Shown here piece after piece: positions 5,498 to 25,887 of a stretch of 50,859 bases of DNA. The translations under genes were made by a program, and so were the position numbers. The stretch comes from Streptomyces virginiae. Its GTDB lineage: Bacteria; Actinomycetota; Actinomycetes; Streptomycetales; Streptomycetaceae. The DNA lies in NCBI RefSeq assembly GCF_000720455.1, contig NZ_JOAK01000038.1:1-50859 (forward strand), given 5' to 3'. The stretch's first letter is position 1; each line of letters starts with the position of its first letter. The notes below the pieces were generated by a model. It saw only the letters and a program-made list of their open reading frames with translations. It ran no database searches and was not told the DNA's origin.

Positions 5498-5520
5498 AGC
5501 CTACCCGTCGGCTCTGACAA
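5498..5520 (-). promoter_or_regulatory. Candidate PafBC-type (RecA-independent DNA-damage) promoter of the helicase
   Basis: On the minus strand TTGTCAGAG (5520-5512) is followed by exactly 8 nt and then TAGGCT (5503-5498). The published consensus, as I recall it, is tTGTCRgtg-N8-TANNNT, so only one position of the nine-base box differs. The -10 box lies 10 nt before the ATG at 5487, giving a leader of a few bases at most. Confidence 0.6.
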
Positions 5521-5533
5521 CAGTCGCGATCAT

Positions 5534-6421
5534 TTATGTGAGGAGCCGGATCGCCCCGGGCACGCACTCGGCGGTCACCGGGAGGGGCCCGAGCGGCTCT
5601 CCGTCGGCGTACGCGGTCAGGCCGGGCGCCTCCAGGGTGATCTTCCTGGTGCGGTGGACGCTCACCTTCGGGTGGGAGAGGTGGCCGCCCCGGTAGACCT
5701 GCGGGAACACCTTCAGCAGGGTGGCCCGGCTGCAGTCGCCGACGACCGTGACGTCGAAGAGGCCGTCGTCGGGGACGGCGCCGGGGCAGATGCGCATGCC
5801 GCCGCCGTAGGAGGAGCCGTTGCCGACGGCCACCAGCGTGGCCTCGGTCTCGATCACCGGGCCGTCGTCGAGGGTGATGCGGTACGGGAACGGCCGGAAG
5901 GCGGCCAGTTCCGCGATCATCGCCAGGTCGTACTTGAAGCGGCCCGCCGGCAGCCGCATCCGGTTGCCCCGGTCGTTGACCTTCGAGTCGAAGCCCGAGC
6001 ACAGCACGGTCCCGTACCAGGTGGCGCCCACGCGCCCCAGGTCGATCTCCCGGGTCCGGCCCTCCTTGAGGGCCTGGGCGGCCATCCGTCCCGCCCGGGC
6101 GGGCTCGCGTACGGGCAGTCCCGCGGCCCGCGCGAAGTCGTTGCCGGTGCCCACGGCGACCACGCCGAGCGGCACCCGGGTGCCCGCGAGCGCCTGGAGC
6201 GCCAGGGAGACCATGCCGTCGCCGCCGACCGCGACGACTGCGCCGGCGCCCTCGCGGACCGCGGCCGTCAGCCGGGCCAGCGCGTCCGGTGCGTCGGTGC
6301 CCACCAGGGTCCGTACGGAGAATCCGGCTTCCCGCAGAGCGGAAGCGGCCGGCTGGGCGGCGTGCGCGCCCCGGCCGCGTCCCGCGGTGGGATTGACGAA
6401 GAGGGTGACCTCGTAGCTCAC
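5534..6421 (-). CDS. Diacylglycerol kinase-family lipid kinase (YegS/DgkB-like)
   Basis: This 295-residue protein belongs to the diacylglycerol/sphingosine kinase catalytic family and would phosphorylate a lipid hydroxyl with ATP. Visible motifs are FVNPTAGRG near the N-terminus (residues 8-16), the GGDG nucleotide-binding loop in VAVGGDGMVS, and VGTGNDFARA. A C-terminal beta-sandwich follows, as in YegS. It begins at GTG 6421 with no Shine-Dalgarno sequence; TACATT lies 7 nt upstream, suggesting a leaderless transcript. It sits between tatC and the helicase, 46 nt from the helicase start codon. The physiological lipid could be diacylglycerol or an undecaprenyl-type alcohol; sequence does not decide. 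Confidence 0.88.
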   Translation of the reverse strand: MSYEVTLFVNPTAGRGRGAHAAQPAASALREAGFSVRTLVGTDAPDALARLTAAVREGAGAVVAVGGDGMVSLALQALAGTRVPLGVVAVGTGNDFARAAGLPVREPARAGRMAAQALKEGRTREIDLGRVGATWYGTVLCSGFDSKVNDRGNRMRLPAGRFKYDLAMIAELAAFRPFPYRITLDDGPVIETEATLVAVGNGSSYGGGMRICPGAVPDDGLFDVTVVGDCSRATLLKVFPQVYRGGHLSHPKVSVHRTRKITLEAPGLTAYADGEPLGPLPVTAECVPGAIRLLT

Positions 6422-6428
6422 CCCCGGG

Positions 6429-6434
6429 AATGTA
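6429..6434 (-). promoter_or_regulatory. Candidate -10 hexamer (TACATT), leaderless
   Basis: TACATT on the minus strand ends 7 nt before the GTG start of the lipid kinase gene. The gene lacks a Shine-Dalgarno sequence. Confidence 0.45.
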
Positions 6435-6459
6435 CCGGAGCCCTTTCGCGGGTCTCGGC

Positions 6460-6496
6460 CGCCCCCGGGGGCACCTCCCGGCGGTGGCCGGGGGCG
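6460..6496 (-). terminator. Hairpin after tatC
   Basis: Arms 6460-6468 and 6488-6496 form a 9-bp all-GC stem with further pairing possible in the 19-nt loop. It lies just after the tatC stop codon and ahead of the separate promoter-like hexamer of the lipid kinase. Confidence 0.5.
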
Positions 6497-6502
6497 TACC
6501 TG

Positions 6503-7468
6503 TCAGGTGGCGTCGTCGTACCCGTTGATCCGGTGTCGTCCGCCGTCGGCCTGTTCGGGCAGGGCGGCCGGGGCGGGCGCGGCGTCGATGGCGCCGATCG
6601 GAGCCGGGGTGAGGTCGAGCTCCGAGGCCTCGTCGTCGCTCAGTCCCGCGTCGGGGTCGTTGCGCCGGCGCCTGCGGTCGTTGAGGAGGCACAGGCCGAC
6701 GGCCGCGAAGTAGAGGGCCACGATGGGCAGGGCCAGCGCGAGCATGGTCGGCGGGTCACCGGTGGGCGTGGCGAAGGCGGCGAAGACGGTGATGCCGAGG
6801 ACCATGCCCCGCCACCAGCCGGCGAGCCGCTTGCCGGAGAGCACGCCGGTGAAGTTCAGCAGGATCAGCAGCAGCGGCAGCTCGAAGGCCAGACCGAAGA
6901 CGATCACCATGCGGGTGACCAGGTCGAGGTAGTCGTCGACCGGGAGCAGGTTGCGCGCGTGGTCGGGGGTGAACTCCAGCATGATCGTCGCGGTCTGCGG
7001 GAGGATCTTGTACGCGAGGACGGCGCCGGTCATGAACAGCGGCGCGCCGACCGCGACGAAACTCCGCGCGTACTTCTTCTCGTGGCTGTGCAGACCGGGC
7101 GCGGCGAACGCCCACAGCTGGTAGAGCCACACCGGCGCGGAGAGCACGACGCCGGCCATCAGCGAGACCTTCAGGGCGATCGAGAACGCCGAGATCAGGC
7201 CGTTCACGGTCATGTCGGCGCAGGGGCGCCCGTTGCGCTGGGTCACCACCCCGTTGGTGCAGCCGACGGAGTCCAGCATCGGCTTCAACAGGAAGTTGAT
7301 GATGTCCCGGTAGAAGAAGGCCGCGATGATCGTGATGACGAGGATCGCCAGGACCGACTTCAGCAGGCGGTTACGCAGTTCGCGCAGGTGCTCGACGAGA
7401 GGCATGCGCCCTTCGGCGTCCTTTGCCTGTCGTTCTTGTTTCCCCTGCTTGCGGGCAGACTTGAGCAA
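6503..7468 (-). CDS. tatC: Sec-independent (twin-arginine) protein translocase subunit TatC
   Basis: TatC is the polytopic receptor of the Tat pathway, which exports folded proteins with RR signal peptides. The 321-residue sequence contains the conserved N-terminal segment MPLVEHLRELRNRL (residues 22-35), in which the Glu contacts the signal peptide, and about six hydrophobic segments. The C-terminal tail of roughly 70 residues is charged and Ala-rich, as in other Streptomyces TatC. I place the start at TTG 7468 because the MLKSARKQ leader is conserved; ATG 7405 would remove 21 residues but keep the whole domain. tatA lies 47 nt upstream, so the two are cotranscribed. A tatB gene is not in the window. 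Confidence 0.95.
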   Translation of the reverse strand: MLKSARKQGKQERQAKDAEGRMPLVEHLRELRNRLLKSVLAILVITIIAAFFYRDIINFLLKPMLDSVGCTNGVVTQRNGRPCADMTVNGLISAFSIALKVSLMAGVVLSAPVWLYQLWAFAAPGLHSHEKKYARSFVAVGAPLFMTGAVLAYKILPQTATIMLEFTPDHARNLLPVDDYLDLVTRMVIVFGLAFELPLLLILLNFTGVLSGKRLAGWWRGMVLGITVFAAFATPTGDPPTMLALALPIVALYFAAVGLCLLNDRRRRRNDPDAGLSDDEASELDLTPAPIGAIDAAPAPAALPEQADGGRHRINGYDDAT

Positions 7469-7515
7469 CCCACGTCCCTTGTCTCGTTGCAGATGACTGG
7501 CCTGAAGGGCGTAGG

Positions 7516-7800
7516 TCAGCCCTGGGCGGTGCGGTTCGGCTCGCTGACCGGCCGGGAGCTGGTGACGTCACCGGGCGCGGCCTGGATGGTGCGCGGGGCG
7601 ACCGGTGCCTGCGCGGACTGGTCGGCCGGGGCGGCCGCGTCGTCGGCCTCGCCGTCCTTCTTCATGGCCTTGGCCTCGCTCTTGAGGATGCGGGCCGACT
7701 TGCCGAGGGAGCGGGCCATGTCGGGGAGCTTCTTGGCGCCGAAGAGCAGGATGATGACTCCGACGATGACGAGGATTTCCCAACCCCTGAGGTTGCCCAT
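7516..7800 (-). CDS. tatA: Twin-arginine translocase subunit TatA
   Basis: This 94-residue protein has the TatA plan: a short N-tail, one transmembrane helix (about residues 7-22), the hinge [16 protein letters not shown], an amphipathic helix to about residue 45, and a charged, Ala-rich tail. TatA oligomers provide the passage step of Tat export in the membrane. The Shine-Dalgarno sequence GGAAG lies 6 nt before ATG 7800. A likely promoter with a perfect palindrome lies upstream (7868-7898), so tatAC need not depend on pafBC transcription. Confidence 0.96.
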
Positions 7801-7867
7801 GAAGTCTTCCTTTTCTCCGAGGTTCGCAGCGCACCGGTACGGGCGCCTGGGACTGTCTCTACCGAGG

Positions 7868-7898
7868 ATCGTAACCCCAGGGGGTTAACGCCCGGCAA
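7868..7898 (-). promoter_or_regulatory. Candidate tatAC promoter with an embedded palindrome
   Basis: On the minus strand TTGCCG is followed about 19 nt later by TACGAT (7873-7868), about 60 nt before the tatA Shine-Dalgarno sequence. A perfect 7-2-7 inverted repeat, TAACCCC-AG-GGGGTTA (7872-7887), covers the spacer next to the -10 box and could be an operator. A good TTGACA also lies further up (7939-7934), but no -10 box is correctly spaced from it. Confidence 0.35.
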
Positions 7899-7967
7899 TC
7901 CCCCGGCGTACCCCGTCTTGCGTCCTGGCCGATTGTCAATCCCCCGGTCACACGCCTGTCGCGTTCG

Positions 7968-8168
7968 TTACGGCCGCACGTCGTGGCCCGCCCGTGCCAG
8001 ACCGGCCGCCTCCCGCTCCAGATCGGCCGACGCGGCGGTGATCCGGCGGCTGGCCAGCGCGACCTCCGAGGAGAGCCGGCGCACCTCCACGTACACGCGC
8101 ACGGCCAGCACGGCCAGCACGGCCACTCCGAGGAAGCCCAGGGCAATTGCGAACATCGGCCACAGCAT
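7968..8168 (-). CDS. Small single-span membrane protein of unknown function
   Basis: This 66-residue protein has one strongly hydrophobic helix (about residues 4-26) followed by a basic and then heptad-like helical tail (EVRRLSSEVALASRRITAAS), which may form a short coiled coil. I do not recognise a named family. It starts at ATG 8168 with TAGGCT 6 nt upstream and no Shine-Dalgarno sequence, so it is probably leaderless with its own promoter. It lies between the zinc-ribbon gene and tatA on the same strand. Its topology and tail recall small Tat-, septum- or stress-related membrane proteins, but nothing in the sequence fixes a role. Confidence 0.7.
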   Translation of the reverse strand: MLWPMFAIALGFLGVAVLAVLAVRVYVEVRRLSSEVALASRRITAASADLEREAAGLARAGHDVRP

Positions 8169-8174
8169 GGGCCG

Positions 8175-8180
8175 AGCCTA
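8175..8180 (-). promoter_or_regulatory. Candidate -10 hexamer (TAGGCT), leaderless
   Basis: TAGGCT on the minus strand lies 6 nt before the ATG at 8168, inside the 26-nt gap after the zinc-ribbon gene. Confidence 0.5.
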
Positions 8181-8194
8181 GGCCACCGGACGCC

Positions 8195-8422
8195 TCAGAT
8201 GCTGCGCAGGGTGCTCACGCCGCCACCGGTCAGCAGCTCCACGATGCGGTCCCCGGCCGGTTTGCGGACGGCGGCACCGCACTCGGGACAGGTGAAGGAG
8301 TAGAAGGTGGCCCTGCGGCTGCCGCCGATGGCCAGCCGCAGGGCGCCCGCGTCCAGCTCGAAGCGGGCGCCGCACTCGGGACAGGAGGCCTTGAAGGCGA
8401 CGGGCCCGGACGTTGGCGACAT
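8195..8422 (-). CDS. Small double-CPECG zinc-ribbon protein
   Basis: This 75-residue protein has two CPECG motifs, at residues 14-18 and 45-49, separated by about 26 residues. That is a zinc-ribbon (rubredoxin-like knuckle pair) arrangement. The rest, including DRIVELLTGG near the C-terminus, is short and mixed. It starts at ATG 8422, only 14 nt after the pafC stop, with a GAGGGG Shine-Dalgarno sequence, so it is translated from the pafBC transcript. It may be a small regulator or cofactor protein acting with PafBC; that is inference from position only. Confidence 0.75.
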   Translation of the reverse strand: MSPTSGPVAFKASCPECGARFELDAGALRLAIGGSRRATFYSFTCPECGAAVRKPAGDRIVELLTGGGVSTLRSI

Positions 8423-8436
8423 CGACCGCGCCCCCC

Positions 8437-9405
8437 TCAGACCTGTTCCCCGTACCCCGCGAGGGCCTCCCGGGCGGCGCTGCGCGCGCTGTCCGCCAGC
8501 TCGGCGGGAGCCGTGATCCGCCCCTCGCGGCCCAGCCGCAGCGCGAGGCGTCGCAGCGAGCCCGGGTCCGGGGTGCGCAGCGTGATCCGCAGGCCGCCGT
8601 CCGCGAGCTCCTCGGCGCTGTCGTGCGGGTAGTACTCGGCGACCCAGCGTCCGCCCGGTCCCACCTCGACCACGACCTCGGGGTCCTCGGCGGACGGCTG
8701 GACGAGTCCCACCGACAGGTCGCGCGGCTCGATGGCGGGCGGCTCCGCCCGCTCGTCCAGCAGCCGGATCTCGGCGACCCGGTCGAGCCGGAAGGTGCGC
8801 CGGGCCTCGGAGAGGTGGCACCAGCCCTCCATGTAGGTGTGCCCCACCGCGAAGAGCCGGATCGGGTCGACCTCGCGCTCGGTGAGCTCGTCACGGGCCG
8901 GCGAGTAGTAGCGCAGCCACAGCCGGCGGCGTTCGGCGATGGCCCGGTCGACGTCGGCGAAGACCCCGCCCTCGGACTCGAAGGTCACCGACAGCCGGGA
9001 GCTGGCCCCGGCGGCCTCGCCCGCGGCCGCCTCCAGCTTCGCGGTCGCCCGCAGCAGGGCGTCCCGGTCGCTCTCGCGCAGCCCCGGCAGGGTCGCCACC
9101 GCGCGCGCGGCGACCAGCAGCGCGGTCGCCTCGTCGGCGGCGAGCCGCAGCGGCTCGGCGGTGGACTCCCCGGAGGCGTCGGGGTTGCGCCACCAGATGC
9201 GCTCCCCGTCGGTGTCGATGTCGAGCAGGTCCCCGCCCCGGAAGCTGGTCCCGCACATGGGCAGCACGTCGAGGTCCGAGATCAGCTCGTCCTCGGTGAT
9301 GCCGAAGGCACGCGCGACGTCGGCGACGTGCGCACCCGGGCGCTCGCGCAGGTACGTCACCAGGGACAGCATCCGGCGGGTCTGGTCGATGGCGTTGGCA
9401 GCCAT
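8437..9405 (-). CDS. pafC: WYL-domain transcriptional regulator PafC
   Basis: PafC forms a heterodimer with PafB that in mycobacteria activates the RecA-independent DNA-damage regulon. The 322-residue sequence has an N-terminal winged helix (residues 1-70) with HVADVARAFGITEDELISDL as the recognition region, then a WYL domain (about residues 140-235) and a WCX C-terminal domain. The start is ATG 9405, which has a GGGGAG Shine-Dalgarno sequence; the frame extends upstream but that part is not conserved. It follows pafB by 102 nt. Single-strand nucleic acid has been proposed as the WYL ligand. The helicase and RecB-type nuclease in this window carry promoter motifs of the PafBC class. Confidence 0.9.
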   Translation of the reverse strand: MAANAIDQTRRMLSLVTYLRERPGAHVADVARAFGITEDELISDLDVLPMCGTSFRGGDLLDIDTDGERIWWRNPDASGESTAEPLRLAADEATALLVAARAVATLPGLRESDRDALLRATAKLEAAAGEAAGASSRLSVTFESEGGVFADVDRAIAERRRLWLRYYSPARDELTEREVDPIRLFAVGHTYMEGWCHLSEARRTFRLDRVAEIRLLDERAEPPAIEPRDLSVGLVQPSAEDPEVVVEVGPGGRWVAEYYPHDSAEELADGGLRITLRTPDPGSLRRLALRLGREGRITAPAELADSARSAAREALAGYGEQV

Positions 9406-9507
9406 GCTGGTACGTCTCCCCCTCAGGGCACGTCTGTGGATGTCGCGGTTCGAAAAAGGTGCGGCGGCGGACCGGCGCCGCACCGGCGGCGGTTCCGGGA
9501 AAGCCTG

Positions 9508-10464
9508 TCAGGCCCCGGCGACGGCCCGCAGCCGGTCCACCACGTCCGCCCGGAGGTCCGCGGGCCCGACCACGACGACGTCGGGGCCGAACTCCACCAG
9601 CCAGGCGTCGAGACCGTGCCCGTAGGGGATCTCCAGCTCGTCCCAGCCGTCGGTGCCCTCGCGCACCGCCGTGGCCTTGGCCCGCAGCGGGTAGCCCGCC
9701 CCGGCCCGCAGCCGGATCAGCGCGGAGCGGTCCGCGCTCTCCCCGGCCCAGCTCGCCACGGTCTCCCGCACGGTCACCACGTCGGGCACCTCCGCGGTGT
9801 ACTTCGCCGCGCGCGAGCGGACCTTCCCGGTGATCCGGGAGAGCCGGAACACCCGCTCCGCCCCGCGTTCACGGTCGTAGCCGGCCAGGTACCAGTGACC
9901 GCGCCAGCACTCCAGAGCCCACGGCTCCACCTGCCGCGTCTCGGGCCGGGCGGCGGTCGACTTGCGGTAGTCGAAGACCACCGGCCGGCGGTCCCGGCAG
10001 GCCAGCATCAGCGGCTCGAAGGCCGCCTCGTGGACCGGGATGCGCGGCTCGATGGCGCTGTGCTGGCCCTCGTACGGGTTGCCCGCCTCGGGCATCCCGC
10101 CCGCCCGCAGCTTCTGCAGGGCGCCGCTGGCGGCCCCCGCGAGACGGGCCTGCTGCCACACCTTGGCCGCCAGGCCCAGGGCGGCGGCCTCCTCGGCGTC
10201 CAGGGAGACCGGGGGCAGCCGGTTGCTGTCCCGGCGGGCCAAGTAGCCCGTCTCCCCCTCCAGGTTCTCCACCGTCTCGATGACCAGACCGAGTTCGCGC
10301 AGGTCGTCCTTGTCCCGCTCGAACATCCGGTTGAAGGACTCGTCGTTGCCGGCTTCCATGTAGGCCTCGATGGAACCGCGCAACTCGCGCTTGCTCAGCG
10401 GCCGGCGGGTCCCCAGCAGACACAGCGCCAGATTCATCAGCCGCTCGGCCTTGGCAATCGCCAT
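9508..10464 (-). CDS. pafB: WYL-domain transcriptional regulator PafB
   Basis: PafB is the partner of PafC. The 318-residue protein has an N-terminal helix-turn-helix (LLGTRRPLSKRELRGSIEAY, residues 17-36), a WYL domain with the region PVVFDYRK, and a C-terminal WCX domain ending near LVEFGPDVVVVGP. The start is ATG 10464 (MAIAKAERLMNL), with GGGGGATGG upstream; a GTG at 10494 in the same frame is less likely. Its own promoter-like sequence and the upstream FKBP terminator suggest that pafBC is transcribed apart from the FKBP and pafA genes, unlike the contiguous pafABC arrangement of mycobacteria. Confidence 0.9.
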   Translation of the reverse strand: MAIAKAERLMNLALCLLGTRRPLSKRELRGSIEAYMEAGNDESFNRMFERDKDDLRELGLVIETVENLEGETGYLARRDSNRLPPVSLDAEEAAALGLAAKVWQQARLAGAASGALQKLRAGGMPEAGNPYEGQHSAIEPRIPVHEAAFEPLMLACRDRRPVVFDYRKSTAARPETRQVEPWALECWRGHWYLAGYDRERGAERVFRLSRITGKVRSRAAKYTAEVPDVVTVRETVASWAGESADRSALIRLRAGAGYPLRAKATAVREGTDGWDELEIPYGHGLDAWLVEFGPDVVVVGPADLRADVVDRLRAVAGA

Positions 10465-10506
10465 CGACGCCCATCCCCCGTTCTCGACACACACTCGTGA
10501 CCGTTG

Positions 10507-10534
10507 ACCGTACCGCCCCGGCGCTCCCGGACAA
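10507..10534 (-). promoter_or_regulatory. Candidate pafBC promoter
   Basis: On the minus strand TTGTCC (10534-10529) and TACGGT (10512-10507) are separated by 16 nt. This would give a leader of about 36 nt for pafB. The -35 box is next to the T-tract of the FKBP terminator. Confidence 0.4.
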
Positions 10535-10539
10535 AAGCG

Positions 10540-10567
10540 AGGGCCCCCGCCTCACGGCGGGGGCCCT
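10540..10567 (-). terminator. Rho-independent terminator after the cytoplasmic FKBP gene
   Basis: A 12-bp stem (10540-10551 and 10556-10567) with a 4-nt loop is followed on the minus strand by a TTTT run. It is one of the few hairpins here with a clear T-tract, and it separates the FKBP genes from pafBC. Confidence 0.8.
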
Positions 10568-10589
10568 GCACTGCTCGCGGATGTTCCGC

Positions 10590-10970
10590 TCAGCCGACCT
10601 TGACCAGGTCGCAGACGAAGATCAGCGTCTCGCCCGGGGCGATCGCGCCGCCCGCACCACGGTCGCCGTACGCCAGGTGCGCCGGGATGACCAGCTTGCG
10701 GCGGCCGCCGACCTTCATGCCCTGGACACCCTGGTCCCAGCCGCTGATGACCTGACCGACACCGAGCTTGAACTGGAGCGCGGAACCGCGGTTCCAGGAG
10801 GCGTCGAACTCCTCGCCGGTGGAGAAGGCCACGCCCACGTAGTGGACGGCGACCATGTCGCCGGCCTTGGCCTCGGCACCGTCACCCAGCCAGATGTCCT
10901 CGACCACGAGGTCCTTGGGGGCCTCGCCCTCGGGGAAGTCGATCTCGGGCTTTTCGAGCTTGTCGCTCAC
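10590..10970 (-). CDS. Cytoplasmic FKBP-type peptidyl-prolyl cis-trans isomerase
   Basis: This 126-residue single-domain FKBP catalyses prolyl cis-trans isomerisation. The active-site landmarks are present: VHYVGVAFSTGEEFDAS, VISGWDQGVQGM, IPAHLAYG and TLIFVCDLVKV. There is no signal peptide, so it acts in the cytoplasm. It starts at GTG 10970 with a good Shine-Dalgarno sequence (GAGGAG). It follows the lipoprotein FKBP gene by 38 nt on the same strand, forming a two-gene unit closed by the terminator at 10540-10567. It is likely a general folding catalyst; a link to PafA is suggested only by position. Confidence 0.94.
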   Translation of the reverse strand: MSDKLEKPEIDFPEGEAPKDLVVEDIWLGDGAEAKAGDMVAVHYVGVAFSTGEEFDASWNRGSALQFKLGVGQVISGWDQGVQGMKVGGRRKLVIPAHLAYGDRGAGGAIAPGETLIFVCDLVKVG

Positions 10971-11008
10971 GGAACTGCTCCTCAAACTATGGGACAACCG
11001 GGACAGTC

Positions 11009-11950
11009 TTACACCACCGCGAGGATGTCGAGGCTGAAGACCAGCGTCGAGTTCGCCGGGATGGTCCCCTGCTCCTTGTCGCCGAAGCCCATGTCCGGCG
11101 GGATCACCAGCAGGATGCGGCTGCCGACCTTCTTGCCGACGATGCCCTCCTTGAGGCCCTTCACCTGAAGCTGCTCCAGCGGCCAGGTCACCGACTGGTC
11201 GGAGGTGTAGGTGCTCTCGAAGGTCTTGTCGTCCTTCCAGGTCTTGCCGTGGAACTTGACGACGACGCTGTTCTTGTCCGTCACCGCCGGACCGTCGCCC
11301 TCCAGGACGTAGTTCGACACCAGCTTCGCCGGCGGGGTGACGTCCTTCGGGACGGCCACGGAGACTTCCTTGCCGTCCGTGTTCGTACCGACCTTCGGCA
11401 GGTCCTTGTTGTCCTGGGCGACTTCCTTGCCCGTGGCCGAGACCGGGACCGTGGCACCCTTGACGATGTCCACGACGAACACCAGCGTGGCGTTCCCCTT
11501 GATCTTCGGCGGCGAACCCTGCGCGCCGTAGCCGAGGTCCGGCGGGATCACCAGCTCGACACGGCTGCCGACCTTCTGGCCCTCGAGGCCCTGGTCCCAG
11601 CCCTTGATGACGGCGCCCGCGCCGATCGTCACGTCGAACGGCTGGCCCTTGCCGAAGCTCTGGTCGAACGGCTCGGTACCGTCCCACACCTGGCCGTAGT
11701 AGTTGACCTGGGCGATGTCGCCCTTCTTCAGCGCCGGGCCGGTGCCCTCCTTGACGGTCACCACCTTCAGCTCCTTGGGCGGCTCGCCCTTCCCCTTCGA
11801 CAGGGTGGGCGTCTCCCCGAACTCGGCACCCTTCGTGATCGCGGGCGCTCCGTTCTTCATCTGGGCGGAGTCGGAGCCGCTGTCGTCGCCACACGCCGCT
11901 GTCGACAGCAGCAGAAGGGGTACGACAAGCAGGCCGGCAAGTCGGCGCAC
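11009..11950 (-). CDS. Lipoprotein with two FKBP-type prolyl isomerase domains
   Basis: The 313-residue precursor starts at GTG 11950 with the Shine-Dalgarno sequence GAGGAA. Its signal peptide ends in the lipobox LSTAAC, with the lipid-modified cysteine at residue 20. Two FKBP domains follow, at about residues 70-155 and 205-313. The first is complete (YYGQVWDGTEPFDQSF, VIKGWDQGLEGQKVGS, PDLGYGAQG). The second is more divergent (VKFHGKTWKDDKTFESTY, PDMGFGDKEQGTIPANSTL) and may bind proteins rather than isomerise prolines. It would fold exported proteins at the outer membrane face. The tandem FKBP layout is common in Streptomyces. Confidence 0.92.
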   Translation of the reverse strand: MRRLAGLLVVPLLLLSTAACGDDSGSDSAQMKNGAPAITKGAEFGETPTLSKGKGEPPKELKVVTVKEGTGPALKKGDIAQVNYYGQVWDGTEPFDQSFGKGQPFDVTIGAGAVIKGWDQGLEGQKVGSRVELVIPPDLGYGAQGSPPKIKGNATLVFVVDIVKGATVPVSATGKEVAQDNKDLPKVGTNTDGKEVSVAVPKDVTPPAKLVSNYVLEGDGPAVTDKNSVVVKFHGKTWKDDKTFESTYTSDQSVTWPLEQLQVKGLKEGIVGKKVGSRILLVIPPDMGFGDKEQGTIPANSTLVFSLDILAVV

Positions 11951-16879: not shown

Positions 16880-17719
16880 TCAGAGCAGGGCGGCGCGCGG
16901 GCCGTCGGGCTGCTCCAGCCGACGGTTGGTGACCGAACGGGCGAGCTCCTGCGACTCGTCGTCGGTCAGCCTGCGGAACCCCTCGTCCGTGATGACGGTG
17001 ACGATCGGGTAGATGTGCCGGTACAGGTCCGGCCCACCGGTCGCCGAGTCGTCGTCGGCGGCGTCGTACAGCGCCTGGACGACCAGGGTGGTGGCCTGCT
17101 CCTCCGTCAGATCGGGGCGGAAGAGCTTCTTCATGGAGCCCCGCGCGAAGATCGAACCGGAACCGGTCGCCGCGTAGCCGTGCTCCTCGGAGCGGCCGCC
17201 GGTGACGTCGTAGGAGAAGATCCGGCCCTTCTCCTTGGCCTCGTCGTACCCGGCGAAGAGCGGCACCACGGCCAGGCCCTGCATCGCCATGCCGAGGTTG
17301 CTCCGGATCATGGTCGAGAGCCGGTTGGCCTTGCCCTCCAGGGAGAGGGTCGCCCCCTCCACCTTCTCGAAGTGCTCCAGCTCCAGCTGGAACAGCTTGA
17401 CCATCTCCACGGCCAGGCCGGCCGTACCGGCGATGCCGACGGCGGAGTACTCGTCCGCCGGGAACACCTTCTCGATGTCCCGCTGCGCGATCATGTTCCC
17501 CATGGTCGCCCGCCGGTCACCGGCGAGCACGACCCCGCCGGGGAAGGTGGCGGCCACGATGGTCGTCCCGTGCGGCGCCTCGACCACGCCTTCCGGCAGC
17601 TTGCGGTTGCCGGGCAGCATCTCGGGCGAGTGCGCGCCCAGGAAGTCCATGAAGGACGAAGACCCCGGCGTCAGGAAGGCTGCCGGTAGACGCCCTGTGC
17701 CACGATTGTTGGCTTCCAC
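16880..17719 (-). CDS. prcB: 20S proteasome beta subunit (propeptide form)
   Basis: PrcB is the catalytic subunit of the 20S proteasome. The 279-residue precursor carries a 51-residue propeptide; cleavage between G51 and T52 ([13 protein letters not shown]) exposes the N-terminal threonine nucleophile. Conserved features follow: [20 protein letters not shown] with the catalytic Lys region, and [11 protein letters not shown]. The GTG start at 17719 has the strong Shine-Dalgarno sequence GGAGGGAC, and it lies 49 nt inside the end of the upstream endonuclease VII-like gene in another frame. This suggests translational coupling. The mature subunit would be 228 residues. Confidence 0.96.
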
Positions 17720-18270
17720 GCGTGTCCCTCCAAGTATGAGACGACCCGACGAGCTGCGTCGGGATCGTCACCCAACTTGCCGATGGCCGTGTTGCAGTTG
17801 AAGCACAGTACGCCTCGGACCCTACCCGTCTTGTGGCAGTGATCCACATGTACCGCAGGGCGCTTGAGACAGATACAGCAGAGCCCGCCCTGGGCGGCGA
17901 TCATTTCGTCCCGGTCAGCCTCGGTCATGCCGTACGAACGCTTGAGATGCCCCGCCCGACCCTGGACGGCCCTGCATGCCGCGCATCGGGTGGACAAGCC
18001 GTCAGACGCCGACGCGTTCTTGTGCCACTCGCTGTGCGGCTTGATCTCACCGCACTGTCGGCAGAGCTTATGGCCGGACGGAACATCCACTTTCTCTTTG
18101 ACGACCTTGCCCCTCGCTGCCTGGCGGCGCCGGTAGTGCGCGGCGCTGTACTCCGCCACGCACTCACGGCACCTCGGCTGAAAGCCGTCGCCGCGATTCC
18201 GATCCAGGGCGAACCCGCTCAGCGGCACGTCCCGGCTGCAGCCGCGACACCACTTCGTTCCATTGGACAT
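17671..18270 (-). CDS. Endonuclease VII-like (HNH, His-Me finger) zinc protein
   Basis: The C-terminal domain matches phage T4 endonuclease VII, a Holliday-junction and branch-cleaving enzyme. It has a C131/C134 and C156/C159 zinc knuckle, catalytic V-D143-H144-C-H, and [10 protein letters not shown] ending in N160. The first 100 residues hold four more CxxC pairs (C8/C11, C34/C37, C70/C73, C96/C99), forming two repeated zinc modules of about 62 residues. It starts at ATG 18270, 37 nt after the pup stop, with only a weak ribosome site, and overlaps prcB by 49 nt. The catalytic residues look intact. A structure-specific nuclease coupled to the proteasome genes is unusual; the target, branched DNA or otherwise, is not known from sequence. 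Confidence 0.88.
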
Positions 18271-18307: not shown

Positions 18308-18520
18308 CTATTCGCCGCCTTTTTGTACGAAGCTCCGAACGAAGTCCTCGGCATTCTCTTCGAGTACATCGTCAATCTCGTCAAGTACGGAGTCGACGTC
18401 GTCGGAGAGCTTTTCCTGGCGCTCCTTGAGGTCGGTCGATTCCTCGACCGCCGCCTCCTCGACCTCCTCGGTCGAGCGCGTCGCCTTCTGCTGTCCGCCG
18501 CCGGTGTCCTTGGTCGCCAT
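18308..18520 (-). CDS. pup: Prokaryotic ubiquitin-like protein Pup
   Basis: Pup is the protein tag for the actinobacterial proteasome. The 70-residue sequence is polar and disordered at the N-terminus (a Gln/Lys/Thr-rich segment) and helical from about residue 30, ending FVRSFVQKGGE. The C-terminal residue is already Glu, not Gln, so deamidation by Dop is not needed before ligation. The start ATG 18520 (MATKDTGG) has a GAGG Shine-Dalgarno sequence; the frame continues upstream for 11 codons, but these are not conserved. It heads the unit with the endonuclease VII-like gene, prcB and prcA. Confidence 0.97.
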   Translation of the reverse strand: MATKDTGGGQQKATRSTEEVEEAAVEESTDLKERQEKLSDDVDSVLDEIDDVLEENAEDFVRSFVQKGGE

Positions 18521-18556: not shown

Positions 18557-18624
18557 GAGAGACCCCGGGATTCGGGATCTCTCAAGATCAGACCCTACGT
18601 CGGACCCTATAGGGAGGGTCCGAC
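18557..18624 (-). terminator. Two tandem hairpins between dop and pup
   Basis: The first hairpin met by dop transcripts has a 10-bp stem (18599-18608 and 18615-18624) with a 6-nt loop. The second (18557-18567 and 18573-18583) has one mismatch and a 5-nt loop, and ends 37 nt before the pup start. They may terminate dop transcripts or act as a pup leader structure. TAGGGT hexamers at 18598-18593 and 18608-18603 (minus strand) are possible pup -10 boxes. Confidence 0.5.
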
Positions 18625-18692
18625 ATTCGTCCCCGTACTTTCACAGTCCGGTTCTTCTCATGATTCCCGGACCGGCCGCATTTCAGGCCCGC

Positions 18693-20204: not shown

Positions 20205-20323
20205 GCGGCCCTCCTTGCCCGGCGGCGCCCCCCTCCGGGGGCGGCGCTCAAGTACCGCTGGTGCTCCGGTGCGTGTGACTGTGCGGTGCCCGTCCCCGCA
20301 CTGCGCGACCGGCGGTACGGAAG

Positions 20324-20329
20324 AGCCTA
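20324..20329 (-). promoter_or_regulatory. Candidate -10 hexamer (TAGGCT) of dop
   Basis: TAGGCT on the minus strand would give a leader of about 110 nt to the dop Shine-Dalgarno sequence. I see no convincing -35 box. Confidence 0.35.
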
Positions 20330-20425
20330 GAACCACTGCGCGCTCGTGGGGAGATCATTTCCGTCATTGAATCTGCCCTGTCACCGGCTGGAATACGGCC
20401 GGTCAATCGGTCGGGTAAAGCAGTC

Positions 20426-20458
20426 GGCTGCGGATGCCCGGGGAGGGCATCCGCAGCC
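20426..20458 (-). terminator. Hairpin terminator of arc
   Basis: A perfect 14-bp stem (20426-20439 and 20445-20458) with a 5-nt loop begins 9 nt after the arc stop. A short T-rich stretch follows on the minus strand. Confidence 0.75.
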
Positions 20459-20466
20459 GCTCCGGT

Positions 20467-22233
20467 TCAGAGGTACTGGCCGGTGTTCGCCACCGTGTCG
20501 ATGGAGCGTCCGGTGTCCGCGCCTTGCTTTCCGGTGACGAGGGTGCGGATGAATACGATCCGCTCGCCCTTCTTACCGGAGATTCGGGCCCAGTCGTCCG
20601 GGTTGGTGGTGTTGGGCAGGTCCTCGTTCTCCTTGAACTCGTCCACGCAGGCCTGGAGGAGGTGGGAGACCCGCAGGCCCTTCTGGTTGTGTTCGAGGAA
20701 TGCCTTGATGGCCATCTTCTTGGCACGGTCGACGATGTTCTGGATCATCGCGCCCGAGTTGAAGTCCTTGAAGTACAGGACTTCCTTGTCGCCGTTGGCG
20801 TACGTGACCTCAAGGAAGCGGTTTTCCTCGGTTTCGGCGTACATCTGCTCGACGACGGTCTGGATCATGCTGTGGACGGTGCCGGCCGTGGAGCCCTGGT
20901 GTTCGGACAGGTCGTCCGTGTGCAGGGGCAGCGAGGCCTTGAGGTACTTGGCGAAGATGTCCTTCGCGGCCTCGGCGTCCGGACGCTCGATCTTGATCTT
21001 CACGTCGAGGCGGCCGGGTCGCAGGATGGCCGGGTCGATCATGTCCTCGCGGTTGGAGGCGCCGATGACGATGACGTTCTCCAGGCCCTCCACGCCGTCG
21101 ATCTCGGCGAGGAGCTGCGGGACGATGGTGTTCTCGACGTCGGAGCTGACTCCGGATCCGCGGGTGCGGAAGAGGGATTCCATCTCGTCGAAGAAGACGA
21201 TGACGGGGGTGCCCTCGCTGGCCTTTTCGCGGGCCCGCTGGAAGACCAGGCGGATGTGCCGCTCGGTCTCGCCGACGTACTTGTTGAGGAGCTCGGGGCC
21301 CTTGATGTTCAGGAAGTACGACTTGCCCTGGGCCTGTCCGGTCACCTCGGCGACCTTCTTGGCAAGGGAGTTGGCGACGGCCTTGGCGATGAGCGTCTTG
21401 CCGCAGCCGGGCGGGCCGTAGAGCAGGATGCCCTTCGGGGGCCGCAGTTCGTGTTCCTTGAACAGGTCGGGGTAGAGGTACGGGAGCTCGACCGCGTCGC
21501 GGATCAGCTCGATCTGGTCGCCCAGGCCGCCGATCTTGTCGTAGTCGATGTCGGGGACCTCTTCGAGGACCAGGTCCTCGACCTCGCTCTTGGGGACGAC
21601 CTCGTAGACGTAGCCGGAGCGGGGTTCGAGCAGGAGGGCGTCGCCGGGACGGATGGTGATGTCCAGGAGCGGCTCGGCGAGCCTCACCACCCGTTCCTCG
21701 TCGGTGTGCCCGACGACCAGGGCGCGCTCGCCGTCCTCGAGGATCTCCTTGAGGGTGACGATGTCCCCGGCCCGCTCGAATTCCATGGCCTCGACCACGT
21801 TGAGGGCCTCGTTGAGCATGACCTCCTGGCCGCGCCGGAGGTCTTCCGGGTCGACGCTGGGGCTGACGTTCACGCGGAGCTTTCGGCCTCCGGTGAAGAT
21901 GTCGACGGTGCCGTCCTCGTTCGCCTGGAGGAAGACACCGAAGCCTGCTGGCGGCTGTGCGAGCCGGTCGACTTCTTCCTTGAGGGCCACGATCTGGTCC
22001 CGGGCCTCACGGAGGGTATTCGCCAGTCGTTCGTTCTGTGCGGAGACGCCGGCCAGATTTGTCTGGAGCTCGACGATCCGCTCTTCGAGAATCCTCGTGT
22101 GTCGCGGAGAGTCGGCGAGCTTACGTCGCAGGACGGCGATTTCCTGCTCGAGATAGGCAACCTGGCCGGCGGGGTCCTCGGACCCTCGCGCGGGCCGGAT
22201 GCCGCGGTTGATGTCGTCGTCGTGGGCTGCCAC
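20467..22233 (-). CDS. arc: Proteasome-associated AAA ATPase ARC (Mpa)
   Basis: ARC is the hexameric unfoldase that binds Pup through its coiled coils and threads tagged proteins into the 20S core. The 588-residue protein has a coiled coil (about residues 25-90), OB domains (95-225), and an AAA domain with Walker A GPPGCGKT (273-280) and Walker [11 protein letters not shown]. The C-terminal GQYL is the HbYX-like tail that docks into PrcA and opens the gate. I chose GTG 22233 because GGAGG lies about 10 nt upstream; the ATG at 22251 is just before that ribosome site. It is divergent from a ferredoxin gene 264 nt away. Confidence 0.96.
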
Positions 22234-22271
22234 GGTCCTCACCTCCTCCATGGGGAGCTGGACGCTTCCTG

Positions 22272-22277
22272 ACCCTA
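22272..22277 (-). promoter_or_regulatory. Candidate -10 hexamer (TAGGGT) of arc
   Basis: TAGGGT on the minus strand places the transcript start about 30 nt upstream of GTG 22233. The -35 region is weak (TTTCAA, 16-nt spacer). Confidence 0.35.
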
Positions 22278-22497
22278 CCTGGGCTGGTGGTGATTGAAAC
22301 CCCTAGATCACAAAGACGATAGAGGTGTGTCCGATCTTCACCCTTGCGTACTCCCTCACGCCAAGGAAATACCCACCCATCAAACTCGGGAAGCCGCCGG
22401 TTGTAAGGTCGAAGTGTTCAACACCCGTCAGGGCCCGCGCGACTTGCTGCGGGTTGTGACCGGGATGGATCACTCACCGCAGGGAACGGCAGGAGAT

Positions 22498-22818
22498 ATG
22501 ACCGTGCAGCAGGAGGCTCCGACCGGCGGCGCCGGTGGGACCGGCGAGCCGCTTGAGGTCTGGATCGACCAGGACCTCTGCACCGGGGACGGCATCTGCG
22601 CGCAGTACGCGCCCGAGGTGTTCGAGCTGGACATCGACGGTCTGGCGTATGTGAAGAGCGCGGACGACGAGCTGCTGCAGGAGGTGGGGGCGAGCACTCC
22701 GGTGCCGCTGCCGCTGCTCCAGGACGTGGTGGACTCGGCGAAGGAATGTCCGGGGGACTGCATTCACGTAAGGCGCGTTTCGGACGGCGTGGAGGTCTTC
22801 GGTCCGGACGCGGAGTGA
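22498..22818 (+). CDS. Small ferredoxin (3Fe-4S / 4Fe-4S type)
   Basis: This 106-residue protein carries the single-cluster ferredoxin motif: C28-x5-C34, then C84-P and C88 in AKECPGDCIHV. It resembles the actinomycete ferredoxins that donate electrons to cytochromes P450 or other oxidases, though no partner gene is adjacent. An insert of about 25 residues (LLQEVGASTPVPLP) separates the cluster halves. The start ATG 22498 has an AGGAG Shine-Dalgarno sequence; an in-frame ATG further upstream is not supported. A TAAGGT hexamer at 22404-22409 is a possible -10 box. It lies back to back with arc and converges with a secreted-protein gene with only 4 nt between. Confidence 0.88.
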   Translation: MTVQQEAPTGGAGGTGEPLEVWIDQDLCTGDGICAQYAPEVFELDIDGLAYVKSADDELLQEVGASTPVPLPLLQDVVDSAKECPGDCIHVRRVSDGVEVFGPDAE

Positions 22819-22822
22819 CGTT

Positions 22823-23434
22823 TCAAACACTCCTGGCGGCTGAGTCCGTCAGCTCCTGGCGGAATTTTCCGTCGGTCCAGCGCCACTTGGCGAGCTGTTT
22901 CTTGTCGGGGCAGCAGCGGGGGACCTCGGGGCCGGAGTAGCCGAGGAGGCTCGCGGTGACGGCGCGGTCGCGCACGGTGAGTTCCGTGGCGGTCTGGCGT
23001 TGCGGGGTGTCCAGGAGGGTGGCCACGACGCGGGGGCGGGAGCCTTCGGCGGGGTCCTGGGTGAGTACGTAGATGGCGTGCGGCGGGGTGCCGGAGCCCG
23101 CGTCGCAGCGGACGGCCGCCACGGTCTCGGGGCGGCCGTCGCCGTCGAGGTCGCCGTGGGCGGTGGCGGTGACGGCCCGGGGCGCGCCCTTGCAGTCGAG
23201 GGGGTAGGTGGCGGCTGCGGCGTCGGGGGCGGTGGCCTCGGGCCCGTTCGCGGCGGGTTCCTCGGCGGCGGTGGTGCCGGTCGCGCCGGCGGGGGTGCCG
23301 GTGGCCGGCTGTACGAGTCCCGCCGCGGCGATGACGGCGGCCAGGGCGGTGGCCGTGGCGAGCCAGTGCAGGGGCCTGGTCCGGGTGTGGGCCGGGGTGT
23401 CCGGGGTTGCCAGCGTGGCGGGGGTGTGCAGCAC
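22823..23434 (-). CDS. Membrane-anchored or secreted protein of unknown function
   Basis: The 203-residue protein has a short cytoplasmic N-tail, one hydrophobic span (about residues 22-40), an Ala/Pro/Thr-rich linker to about residue 75, and an extracytoplasmic domain. That domain includes GDLDGDGRPETVAAVRC, which looks like an FG-GAP or EF-hand-like calcium loop, and four cysteines that could pair. The start GTG 23434 has AGGAG about 10 nt upstream. It follows trmI on the same strand but beyond a strong terminator, so it is a separate unit. I do not recognise a named family. Confidence 0.75.
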   Translation of the reverse strand: MLHTPATLATPDTPAHTRTRPLHWLATATALAAVIAAAGLVQPATGTPAGATGTTAAEEPAANGPEATAPDAAAATYPLDCKGAPRAVTATAHGDLDGDGRPETVAAVRCDAGSGTPPHAIYVLTQDPAEGSRPRVVATLLDTPQRQTATELTVRDRAVTASLLGYSGPEVPRCCPDKKQLAKWRWTDGKFRQELTDSAARSV

Positions 23435-23538
23435 GCGGGGTGTCTCCTGTGCGAAGGGTGACGGGGAGCCAGCATCGTGCCACACCTCACACGGGGGTGG
23501 AACGGCAGGGTCCGGAGCCGTTGCGGAGACAACGAAAA

Positions 23539-23588
23539 GGCGCTGCGGCGCAGTTCCCCGGTGATGGGGGGAACTGCGCCGCAGCGCC
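23539..23588 (-). terminator. Long hairpin terminator of trmI
   Basis: A perfect 21-bp stem (23539-23559 and 23568-23588) with an 8-nt loop is followed on the minus strand by TTTTCGTT. It lies 35 nt after the trmI stop codon. Confidence 0.85.
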
Positions 23589-23622
23589 GTCGTGTTGGGT
23601 CGGCGGAGGATCCTGAGGGCCG

Positions 23623-24519
23623 TTATGCGGAGCGGTCGCTGCCGGGGCCCTCGTAGTCCTCGCCGTAGGCGCCCTTGGCGGGGCGGCGGCGGCGCATGGG
23701 GGGCTCGACGCCGTCCGCGAGGCGGCGGGCGGTGACGAGGAAGCCGGTGTGGCCGATCATGCGGTGGTCCGGGCGGACGGCGAGGCCTTCGACGTGCCAG
23801 TTGCGGATCATCGATTCCCACGGCTGCGGCTCGGCGAAGCAGCCGATCTCGCGGATGGACTCGACGGTCTTGGACAGCTGGGTGGTGGTGGCCACGTAGC
23901 AGCAGAGGATGCCGCCGGGGACGAGGGCCTTGGAGACGGCCTCCAGGCATTCCCAGGGGGCGAGCATGTCGAGGATGACGCGGTCGACGTCGGTGTCGGA
24001 CAGGTTGTCCTGGAGGTCGCCGACGGTGAGCTGCCAGGCCGGGTGGGGTCCGCCGAAGTAGCGTTCCACGTTGGCGGTGGCGATCTCGGCGAAGTCCGCG
24101 CGGCGCTCGTAGCTGTGGAGCATGCCCTGGTCGCCGATGGCGCGCAGCAGGAAGCTGCTCAGGGAGCCGGAGCCCACGCCCGCTTCCACGACGCGGGCGC
24201 CGGGGAAGATGTCGGCGAAGGCCAGGATCTGGCCCGCGTCCTTGGGGTAGACCACGGCGGCGCCGCGGGGCATGGACAGGACGTAGTCGGGGAGCAGGGG
24301 GCGCAGCGCGAGGTACGCGACGTTCCCCGTGGTACGGACAACACTGCCTTCGGGAGCACCGATCAGCTCGTCGTGGGGGAAGGAACCCTTGTGGGTGTGG
24401 AAATTCTTCCCGGCTTCGAGCGTGAACGTGTAGTGGCGGCCCTTGGGGTCGGTGAGCTGAACCTGGTCCCCGACCTTGAAGGGCCCGCGTCGGCGGGCGG
24501 CACCGGTCGGTTCGGACAT
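23623..24519 (-). CDS. trmI: tRNA (adenine-58-N1)-methyltransferase TrmI
   Basis: TrmI methylates N1 of adenine 58 in the T-loop of tRNA with S-adenosylmethionine. The 298-residue protein has an N-terminal beta domain (FKVGDQVQLTDPKGRHYTF), then a Rossmann methyltransferase domain with the SAM-binding motif ARVVEAGVGSGSLSSFLL and the acidic motif LHSYERRADFAEIA. The later VDRVILDMLAPWECLE is the conserved catalytic region. The start is ATG 24519, with TACACT 6 nt upstream and no Shine-Dalgarno sequence. In mycobacteria this gene (Rv2118c, from memory) is also beside the proteasome genes. It overlaps no neighbour; the site-2 protease gene stops 18 nt upstream on the same strand. Confidence 0.94.
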   Translation of the reverse strand: MSEPTGAARRRGPFKVGDQVQLTDPKGRHYTFTLEAGKNFHTHKGSFPHDELIGAPEGSVVRTTGNVAYLALRPLLPDYVLSMPRGAAVVYPKDAGQILAFADIFPGARVVEAGVGSGSLSSFLLRAIGDQGMLHSYERRADFAEIATANVERYFGGPHPAWQLTVGDLQDNLSDTDVDRVILDMLAPWECLEAVSKALVPGGILCCYVATTTQLSKTVESIREIGCFAEPQPWESMIRNWHVEGLAVRPDHRMIGHTGFLVTARRLADGVEPPMRRRRPAKGAYGEDYEGPGSDRSA

Positions 24520-24525
24520 GTGACC

Positions 24526-24531
24526 AGTGTA
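24526..24531 (-). promoter_or_regulatory. Candidate -10 hexamer (TACACT) of trmI, leaderless
   Basis: TACACT on the minus strand lies 6 nt before the trmI ATG, in the 18-nt gap after the protease stop codon. Confidence 0.5.
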
Positions 24532-24537
24532 TTGGCT

Positions 24538-25737
24538 TCAGGACTGGGGCCGTGCCATGGCCTTCACGAAGGCCTTCTCGACGTCGAGGGTGGACAGGAC
24601 GCCGTAGATGGCGCCGCCGGGTTCGAGGACGAGGTATTCGGTGGCGGGGGTGGCGCGGAGGTGGTCGAGGAGTTCTTCGCCGGTGAGTTCCGCGGAAACC
24701 TTCATGCCGTCGGTGAGGTCCTGGGCGAGGGTGCTGACGGCGACCCAGGGGCGGCGGTGTTCGGGGACGGAGGCGATGGCGCTCTCGCGGACGATGGCGG
24801 TGGGGTCTCCGTGGCCGTCGACGACGACGAGGGCGCGGGCTCCGGCTTCGTTGGCGCGGCGGAGGGCTTCGGAGAGGGGGGTGGCGTTCTCGACGGGGAT
24901 GGCGCGGCGGGTGAGGCTGCGGGCGCGCAGTTCGGGGAGGTGTTCGCGCAGGCGGGCCATGCGGAGGCTGTTGCCGGCGCCGGTCCAGATGATGGCGGCC
25001 AGGATGGCGGCGAGGAGGGCGTCCATGACGGTGTCCATGCCGCCGATCTCTTCGGTGCGGTTGCCGAGGAGTCCGGTGTGGGTGAGGAGGGGGAGGCCGA
25101 GGAGGACGGCGACGGCGAGGGCGCGGCCGACCCAGGCGGCGGCGACGGTGCCGGCCATGGGTTTGCCGGTGACGCCCCAGATGACGGCGCGGAGCATGCG
25201 GCCGCCGTCGAGGGGGAGGCCGGGGAGCAGGTTGAAGGCCGCGACGAGCAGGTTGGAGATCATGAGGCCGGCGAGGAGGACGCCGGGGACGGTCGCGGGG
25301 TCGACGGCTTTCATGCCGAGGTAGAAGGCGCCGGCGAGGAGGAGGGAGAGGAGGGGGCCGACGAAGGCGAGGACGAACTCCCGGCCGGGGGTCTCGGATT
25401 CCTTCTCGATCTCGGAGACTCCGCCGAAGAACTGGAGCTGGATGCGGCGGACGGGGAGTTTGAAGCGGAGGGCGGCGACGGTGTGGGCGAGTTCGTGGAC
25501 GAGGACGGAGGCGTAGAAGGCGACGGCGAAGAAGAGGGAGACGAGGTAGCGGACGGGTCCGAGGTCGGGCAGGACGCGGTCGAGCTGGTCTCCGAAGACC
25601 CAGGTGATGAGGGCGGCGACGAGGAACCAGCTGGGTGAGACGTAGACGGGCACGCCGAAGGGGCGGCCCATGAGGAGTCCGCCGCCCGGTCCGGGGCGCC
25701 GGTTGTCGCGCCCGTCGGTCTGGTCGGTGTCTGCCAC
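24538..25737 (-). CDS. Site-2 protease family membrane metalloprotease with CBS-like domain
   Basis: This 399-residue protein belongs to peptidase family M50, which cleaves substrates within the membrane. The zinc motif H81-E-L-A-H85 lies in a transmembrane helix, and the second motif is NLLPGLPLDGGRM, with the Asp that completes the site. About six hydrophobic segments cover residues 30-260. The C-terminal part (about 275-399) has two CBS-like repeats that may sense a nucleotide. The start GTG 25737 has a GAAGGAC Shine-Dalgarno sequence; the frame extends 99 codons upstream without support. It is divergent from the RecB-family nuclease gene. Substrates such as anti-sigma factors are possible, but none is encoded nearby. 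Confidence 0.9.
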   Translation of the reverse strand: MADTDQTDGRDNRRPGPGGGLLMGRPFGVPVYVSPSWFLVAALITWVFGDQLDRVLPDLGPVRYLVSLFFAVAFYASVLVHELAHTVAALRFKLPVRRIQLQFFGGVSEIEKESETPGREFVLAFVGPLLSLLLAGAFYLGMKAVDPATVPGVLLAGLMISNLLVAAFNLLPGLPLDGGRMLRAVIWGVTGKPMAGTVAAAWVGRALAVAVLLGLPLLTHTGLLGNRTEEIGGMDTVMDALLAAILAAIIWTGAGNSLRMARLREHLPELRARSLTRRAIPVENATPLSEALRRANEAGARALVVVDGHGDPTAIVRESAIASVPEHRRPWVAVSTLAQDLTDGMKVSAELTGEELLDHLRATPATEYLVLEPGGAIYGVLSTLDVEKAFVKAMARPQS

Positions 25738-25864
25738 GTCTGTCCTTCGTTCGGTGCCGGGGGTTCGCGTGTGGTTCTCGTGGTGTACGGCGCGGTGTGC
25801 GTAGCGCCTGGTGATGCTCCGATCATGCAGTGCGAGGGGGCTTGGCGTCGATGGTATGCGCGTG

Positions 25865-25887
25865 CTGTCGGTCGCGGGTCGTAGGGT
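25865..25887 (+). promoter_or_regulatory. Candidate PafBC-type promoter of the RecB-family nuclease
   Basis: CTGTCGGTC (25865-25873), exactly 8 nt, then TAGGGT (25882-25887). Against tTGTCRgtg-N8-TANNNT, seven of nine positions and the -10 box agree; TAGGGT is also the -10 I recall for Streptomyces recA. The -10 box is 7 nt before the ATG at 25895. Confidence 0.55.

Follow-up and report, generated by a model that had tools for sequence, protein, structure and literature searches.

The stretch of DNA analysed here, 50,859 nucleotides (nt) of Streptomyces virginiae contig NZ_JOAK01000038.1 (hereafter the window), is a Pup-proteasome/pafBC locus within an 8.3-Mb Streptomyces-type genome. Family searches and translations found among its proteins PafB and PafC, two members of the Pup_ligase family (PafA and Dop, by position), the proteasomal ATPase, TatC and the product of pup. 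An earlier interpretation made from the letters of the window alone (the sequence-only reading) had proposed that two enzyme genes of this neighbourhood, coding for a helicase and a RecB-family nuclease, are preceded by PafBC-type, RecA-independent DNA-damage promoters. The genes and sites concerned are:

2647 to 5487, minus strand: gene of a HelY-type DEAD/DSHCT helicase (helY; Pfam DEAD, Helicase_C and DSHCT)
5498 to 5520, minus strand: PafBC-type site of the helicase gene, TTGTCAGAG CCGACGGG TAGGCT, i.e. TTGTCAGAG-N8-TAGGCT
8437 to 9483, minus strand: pafC (HTH_PafC, WYL and WCX; matches PafC of 7p5x, E 4.4e-49)
9508 to 10494, minus strand: pafB (WYL and WCX; matches the PafB chain of 7p5x, E 6.7e-54)
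25865 to 25887, plus strand: PafBC-type site of the nuclease gene, CTGTCGGTC GCGGGTCG TAGGGT, i.e. CTGTCGGTC-N8-TAGGGT
25895 to 26785, plus strand: gene of a stand-alone RecB-like PD-(D/E)XK nuclease of 296 residues (Pfam PDDEXK_1)

That the window encodes both WYL regulators was borne out by their domains and by the matches to the chains of 7p5x, which are the M. smegmatis pair. In an alignment to the 7p5x chain, read by eye, R181, Y196, R204 and R208 are all kept in the window PafB; according to a passage of PMC11804915, a change of these residues abolishes the binding of single-stranded DNA (ssDNA) by mycobacterial PafB. PafB and PafC are thus both encoded here, with the ssDNA-binding residues in place. 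A PafC-type match was present in 55 of the 57 genomes searched (54 above the cut-off), with a search model that is not specific, since it also matched in 5 of 14 control genomes. Co-occurrence of pafC and the nuclease gene was discarded as a test, being uninformative when a PafC-type match is nearly universal.

On re-reading the sequence, both motifs were found where they had been described, each with the exact 8-nt spacer to TANNNT. The helicase ATG (5487) lies 10 nt past its −10. The nuclease ATG (25895) follows its −10 by only 7 nt, a leaderless geometry, so that the transcript is predicted to start at or beside the start codon. No sigma −35 was seen at the usual place of the nuclease site, the hexamers at 17, 18 and 19 nt being CGCGTG, GCGCGT and TGCGCG. 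The one and two mismatches of nine that had been assigned to the helicase and nuclease sites, respectively, were counted against a longer consensus; by the M. tuberculosis PafBC motif (TGTCGG, TGTCAG or TGTCAC, N10, TANNNT, as given in a passage of PMC8151990), both sites fit TGTC(A/G)G-N10-TANNNT exactly. The mismatches thus fall at positions of little weight, and the initial T is present in only 12 of the 37 nuclease sites found outside the genus.

For a measure of rarity, a matrix was trained on 22 of the 34 matches to the TTGTCR pattern that lie outside the window in the same genome; the other 12 were left out by judgement, as having no convincing gene downstream. The helicase site scored 23.2 and the nuclease site 16.8. 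Only three of the 101,674 window positions reach the nuclease score, namely the two sites and a match at 50286 (23.8). In a background of 20 stretches of 20 kb from the same genome, both strands included, none of 799,120 positions reached the helicase score and a single one, without TA in its −10, the nuclease score.

Conservation was scored as TGTC-N12-TANNNT with an in-frame start codon 4–12 nt further on, start proximity being part of the test. Upstream DNA came from the best 30 matches of each search. In this way, loci were examined in 32 of 43 genus genomes for the nuclease (among the 43, G008 has a weak match only, E 2.6e-4), in 33 of 44 for the helicase and in 32 of 43 for pup. Outside the genus, 25 of 36 family helicase loci were covered; for the class outside the genus, the genomes examined among those with a match were 46 of 47 for the nuclease (one without upstream DNA), 46 of 55 for the helicase and 26 of 47 for pup.

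The nuclease site was found in all 32 genus loci and in 37 of the 46 class loci from other genera, where the start lies 5–8 nt past the −10. Among named loci it is present in 73 of 80, including 17 of 18 mycobacterial ones (the best 80 of at least 380 confirmed stretches), and named Streptomyces orthologs have closely similar promoters. With TGTC and TA..T invariant by construction of the search, it is the controls, not the invariance, that bear the argument. In the nuclease sets, other spacings from N6 to N19 gave at most 2 loci and other tetramers at most 1, save CGTC with 5; across all sets of this test, no spacing except 12 and no tetramer except TGTC exceeded 2 loci, the 5 nuclease loci with CGTC again set apart. 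The nuclease site is thus conserved across species at a fixed spacing.

The helicase site shows a narrower distribution. All 33 genus loci have it, and so do 19 of the 25 loci from the rest of the family. Counting genus and family together, 52 of 58 loci keep TGTC at N12, with other tetramers in at most 1 and other spacings in none. Beyond the family it is not conserved, a result that bears on its age and is not required of a regulon member. As judged from these distributions, the nuclease site, the weaker match of the two in the window, is an old promoter and the helicase site, the better match, a younger one. In 23 class genomes that carry both genes on one contig, nuclease and helicase are separated by 5 to 35 kb in 22 and by 73 kb in one, from which their neighbourhood also appears to be old.

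In all 11 aligned nuclease proteins we found an invariant C, H, D, DYKTG and QxxxY together with three further invariant C, and from the four cysteines the enzyme is likely to be an iron–sulfur nuclease. Among solved chains the nearest is 6ppu_A (E 2.6e-4), which belongs to a helicase-nuclease as one of its subunits and which we take to be of the AdnAB type. The mycobacterial loci of the named scan fit with rv2119, presumably the ortholog of this nuclease. In a passage of PMC8151990, the recB-like rv2119 is listed among the genes overexpressed in an M. tuberculosis recA mutant treated with mitomycin C; that passage does not tie rv2119 to PafBC. The predicted PafBC control of the nuclease gene is strongly supported by the class-wide conservation of its site, and across Actinobacteria the stand-alone nuclease, encoded near the Pup proteasome, is likely to be a very conserved member of the PafBC regulon. 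A little-studied enzyme is thereby named as a candidate of that regulon.

The motif was next considered at the level of the genus. In 41 genus genomes, TTGTCRGTG-N8-TANNNT has 1044 matches against 5 for the reversed pattern, with 11 to 44 (median 22) per genome. The looser TTGTCR-N11-TANNNT gave 37 matches in this genome compared to 7 for its reversal, so that about one in five of the loose matches may be due to chance; 33 of the 37 have a G after TTGTCR and 22 the full GTG. Genes just 3' of loose matches include dnaX, ung, ruvC, uvrC, polA and those of a dGTPase-type HD protein, an AlkZ-like glycosylase, a WGR protein and an SNF2 helicase, as well as ligA, whose start is 202 nt on. Two more genes after matches were recognised by eye in their translations, namely recA and that of a macrodomain-like protein without a Pfam family hit. 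The remaining loose matches precede genes without an evident repair role or no convincing gene. On these counts, the PafBC-type motif is judged to mark a real regulon in the genus Streptomyces.

The motif itself is already known in Streptomyces. A passage of PMC2375139 describes 67 S. coelicolor genes with related motifs, with DNA repair as the main group, and cites the S. rimosus recA promoter; a passage of PMC5087735 places a RecA-NDp promoter ahead of the ultraviolet-inducible SCO6735 of S. coelicolor. Among the titles and opening lines of abstracts listed from the open-licence literature, we found no report that tests PafBC in Streptomyces or describes the three promoters discussed here (the third, before pup, is taken up below), although a listing of a single gene may exist. 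The present results bear on a question left open in print, i.e. whether Streptomyces has a PafBC-type damage response independent of RecA/LexA.

Three further observations concern the same motif in other places. In five loci (L010, L013, L022, L032 and L034), PafBC-type sites precede SWIM, VWA, DUF4132 and WGR proteins (VWA in L022 and SWIM in L034 being near cut-off only), and perhaps these proteins form one damage-inducible system. In L007, a PafBC-like site lies ahead of a sigma-70-family factor with a SnoaL-like domain. By eye, the bases after TGTCRG in L097–L122 and L177–L196 are often TGG or ACC, as if the site had two variants.

A number of observations weigh against reading these sites as PafBC promoters. 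An initial search, reported in a passage of PMC9380542, suggested that S. venezuelae does not share the M. smegmatis motif; this remark is at odds with the counts across the genus, though S. venezuelae was not identified among the 41 genomes. Within the window, the match at 50286 on the plus strand is perfect in all nine positions and scores above the helicase site; it lies in frame within an open reading frame (ORF) of coding-like composition (49407–50390), looks for that reason like chance, and was set aside. The strict site is missing from 9 of the 46 class nuclease loci and 6 of the 25 family helicase loci, and beyond the family the helicase site occurs in 1 of 46 loci (none in a first set of 26 from the class and one in a second set of 20). 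At the cut-off, no nuclease was found in 6 of 60 class genomes that keep the helicase and a PafC-type match (9 of 60 overall). The RG after TGTC drifts: at the helicase, 28 of 33 sites in the genus and 13 of 19 in the family retain it, and at the nuclease 27 of 37 class sites do; as the drift is alike at both genes, it does not set the helicase apart. Finally, the genus-level loci are related to one another and their counts are not independent.

The helicase promoter carries a second conserved element, which overlaps the end of the gene upstream:

5532 to 5537, minus strand: A/T element ATAAAT at the place expected for the WblC/WhiB7 motif, upstream of the helicase site and overlapping the dgk stop codon
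5534 to 6421, minus strand: diacylglycerol-kinase-like gene (dgk; DAGK_cat and YegS_C), directly upstream of the helicase gene

Between −17 and −11 from TGTC, four A/T in a row are found at the helicase in 29 of 33 sites of the genus and 17 of 19 of the family, and in none of the nuclease sites (0 of 32 in the genus, 0 of 37 in the class) or of the 34 own-genome matches. In a passage of PMC7157823, the WblC consensus is given as GAAAWY-N3-TKGMNN-N16-19-TANNNT, with the −35 described as less conserved, and the A/T run of the helicase sites falls where this consensus predicts its A/T motif. The element does not merely reflect the dgk stop codon, an explanation we rejected: overlap with the stop codon of a long ORF is confined to 7 of 33 sites in the genus and 2 of 19 in the family (window included), and 22 of 29 genus and 15 of 17 family A/T elements are free of a stop codon.

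The S. coelicolor helY gene (SCO1631) was reported in the same paper to be WblC-activated, and its product to be ribosome-associated. Because of this report and the A/T element at the WblC place, the helicase promoter is probably not a plain DNA-repair promoter. The strongest rival explanation is that of a WblC/WhiB7 promoter alone: WblC and the housekeeping sigma factor would read the A/T element and the −10, TGTC would be kept for some other reason, and PafBC would play no part. The report on SCO1631 agrees with it, as do the position of the A/T element, its confinement to the helicase sites and the lack of the helicase site outside the family. WblC alone does not explain why TGTC at N12 is kept across the family, its consensus having no such element, and the WblC position shows nothing that resembles a −35 hexamer: none of the hexamers 16–19 nt from the helicase −10 (GACTGT, CGACTG, GCGACT and CGCGAC) fits TKGMNN. 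In the window, the A/T element agrees with GAAAWY at best in 4 of 6 positions and overlaps the dgk stop codon, a point against the dual reading given below. Two other genes of this genome, hflX and hrpA, showed no clear promoter of WblC architecture and thus provided no positive control for WblC. With the A/T element and TGTC both kept and the −35 missing, a dual promoter is favoured over its main rival, control by WblC alone, which we hold to be possible, if on the unlikely side. PafBC control of the helicase, probably shared with WblC, is plausible from the arrangement of these elements, and the helicase promoter is a place where DNA-damage and translation-stress signals may meet. Of the sequence-only proposal that PafBC controls two enzymes in its own neighbourhood, the part on the nuclease gained support from the class-wide site and rv2119, and the part on the helicase is plausible but incomplete, as it had left out the WblC element.

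A third PafBC-type site was found in the window:

18604 to 18626, minus strand: PafBC-type site before pup, ATGTCGGACCCTCCCTATAGGGT, which fits TGTCGG-N10-TAGGGT (score 13.7)
18308 to 18520, minus strand: pup (translation ends in GGE; match in 41 of 41 genus genomes)

The statement that the other promoters of the window lack the upstream half-site is therefore not tenable; a weak match (13.9) at 36192–36214 on the plus strand also lies 33 nt ahead of a gene for an IclR-family regulator. Scored up to 220 nt upstream of pup and with no start-codon condition, TGTC-N12-TANNNT is present at 29 of the 32 loci of the genus and at 6 of the 26 from the class; control tetramers reached up to 12 in the genus (ATCG) and 5 in the class (CGTC), and spacing 14 gave 2 in the class. 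The trinucleotide AAA occurs at −17 to −11 in 21 of the 29 genus pup sites; the corresponding counts are 0 of 32 (genus) and 1 of 37 (class) for the nuclease and 1 of 34 for the own-genome matches. Four consecutive A/T are found in only 1 of the 29, so that the A-tract result depends on the measure used. Neither pup nor the proteasome is mentioned in the main text of PMC7157823.

Two side observations were made around pup. A perfect 10-bp inverted repeat, GTCGGACCCT-N6-AGGGTCCGAC, lies over the pup −10 at 18599–18624 on the minus strand and overlaps the PafBC-type site; one of its arms varies in many relatives (both by eye), and the repeat could be an operator of something else. Pup and prcB are usually adjacent. 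In the window, an ORF at 17671–18270 (minus strand) with CxxC pairs and an HNH-like stretch, seen by eye, lies between them.

Taken together, we consider it quite likely that the window is a Pup-proteasome/pafBC locus with PafBC-type, RecA-independent damage promoters, among which that of the nuclease would be ancient, that of helY dual and that of pup a third. Binding by PafBC, induction and dual control are what we infer from the site anatomy, the enrichment, the conservation and the ssDNA-contact residues of PafB that were observed. In the mechanism, drawn from mycobacterial work (a passage of PMC11804915), ssDNA produced by damage would load into the WYL domains of PafBC, and the loaded PafBC would join RNA polymerase with the housekeeping sigma factor at promoters that have TGTC(A/G)G near −26, a TANNNT −10 and no usable −35. 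The nuclease gene would be the ancient leaderless member of the regulon and the helY promoter a lineage-specific one, probably responding to both DNA damage and ribosome stress, with a third PafBC-type site ahead of pup.

A more far-reaching proposal is that of a self-referring damage module, in which PafBC would activate the nuclease gene, helY and an operon led by pup, and the helY and pup promoters would both carry an A-rich element at the WblC position. This we regard as doubtful. If true, ssDNA and stalled ribosomes would converge on one promoter via two activators that act on region 4 of the housekeeping sigma factor.

The other rival explanations fare worse than WblC alone. The sites could be RecA-NDp promoters read by another factor, e.g. 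a ClgR-type or a different WYL regulator: ClgR is reported to recognise the region of the mycobacterial P1 promoter (cited in a passage of PMC5656591), and a passage of PMC9380542 leaves the Streptomyces pathway open. The PafB and PafC of the window nevertheless match their M. smegmatis counterparts and retain the ssDNA residues, and PafC-type matches are nearly universal in the genomes searched, albeit with the non-specific model, which makes another reader improbable. Control of both starts by LexA, for which one may cite the listing of recA and ruvC as S. venezuelae LexA targets (a passage of PMC9380542), was rejected as very improbable: the best match to tCGAAC-N4-GNNCGa has 6 of 10 positions near the helicase and 7 of 10 near the nuclease, no better than background, 500 random 300-base windows giving 7 most often. 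Chance matches without function, of which the one at 50286 would be an example, were ruled out to a negligible residue by the background counts and by conservation across species with its spacing and tetramer controls, fixed spacing in other genera having been found for the nuclease.

Returning to the PafBC-type reading, the system can be compared with several known ones. The nuclease shares the PD-(D/E)XK core, QxxxY and four cysteines with nuclease domains of the AdnB, AddB and Cas4 types, and differs from them in consisting of one domain only (296 residues) and in having a promoter to itself. The helicase promoter resembles WblC/WhiB7 promoters in having an A/T element placed some 26 nt ahead of its TANNNT −10 and in that helY (SCO1631) belongs to the WblC regulon; it differs in the lack of a clear −35 (TKGMNN), in a GAAAWY fit of 4 of 6 and in the extra TGTC. 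With the Streptomyces RecA-NDp promoters (S. rimosus recA, SCO6735 and the SIGffRid set of 67 S. coelicolor genes), the window sites have the motif and the genus in common, whereas the respective passages of PMC5087735 and PMC2375139 make no link to PafBC. The mycobacterial PafBC/RecA-NDp promoters share with them TGTC(A/G)G, N10 and TANNNT with no −35 needed, and PafB and PafC with the ssDNA residues; the differences are that the window belongs to a Streptomyces-type genome and that the helicase promoter has an additional A/T element.

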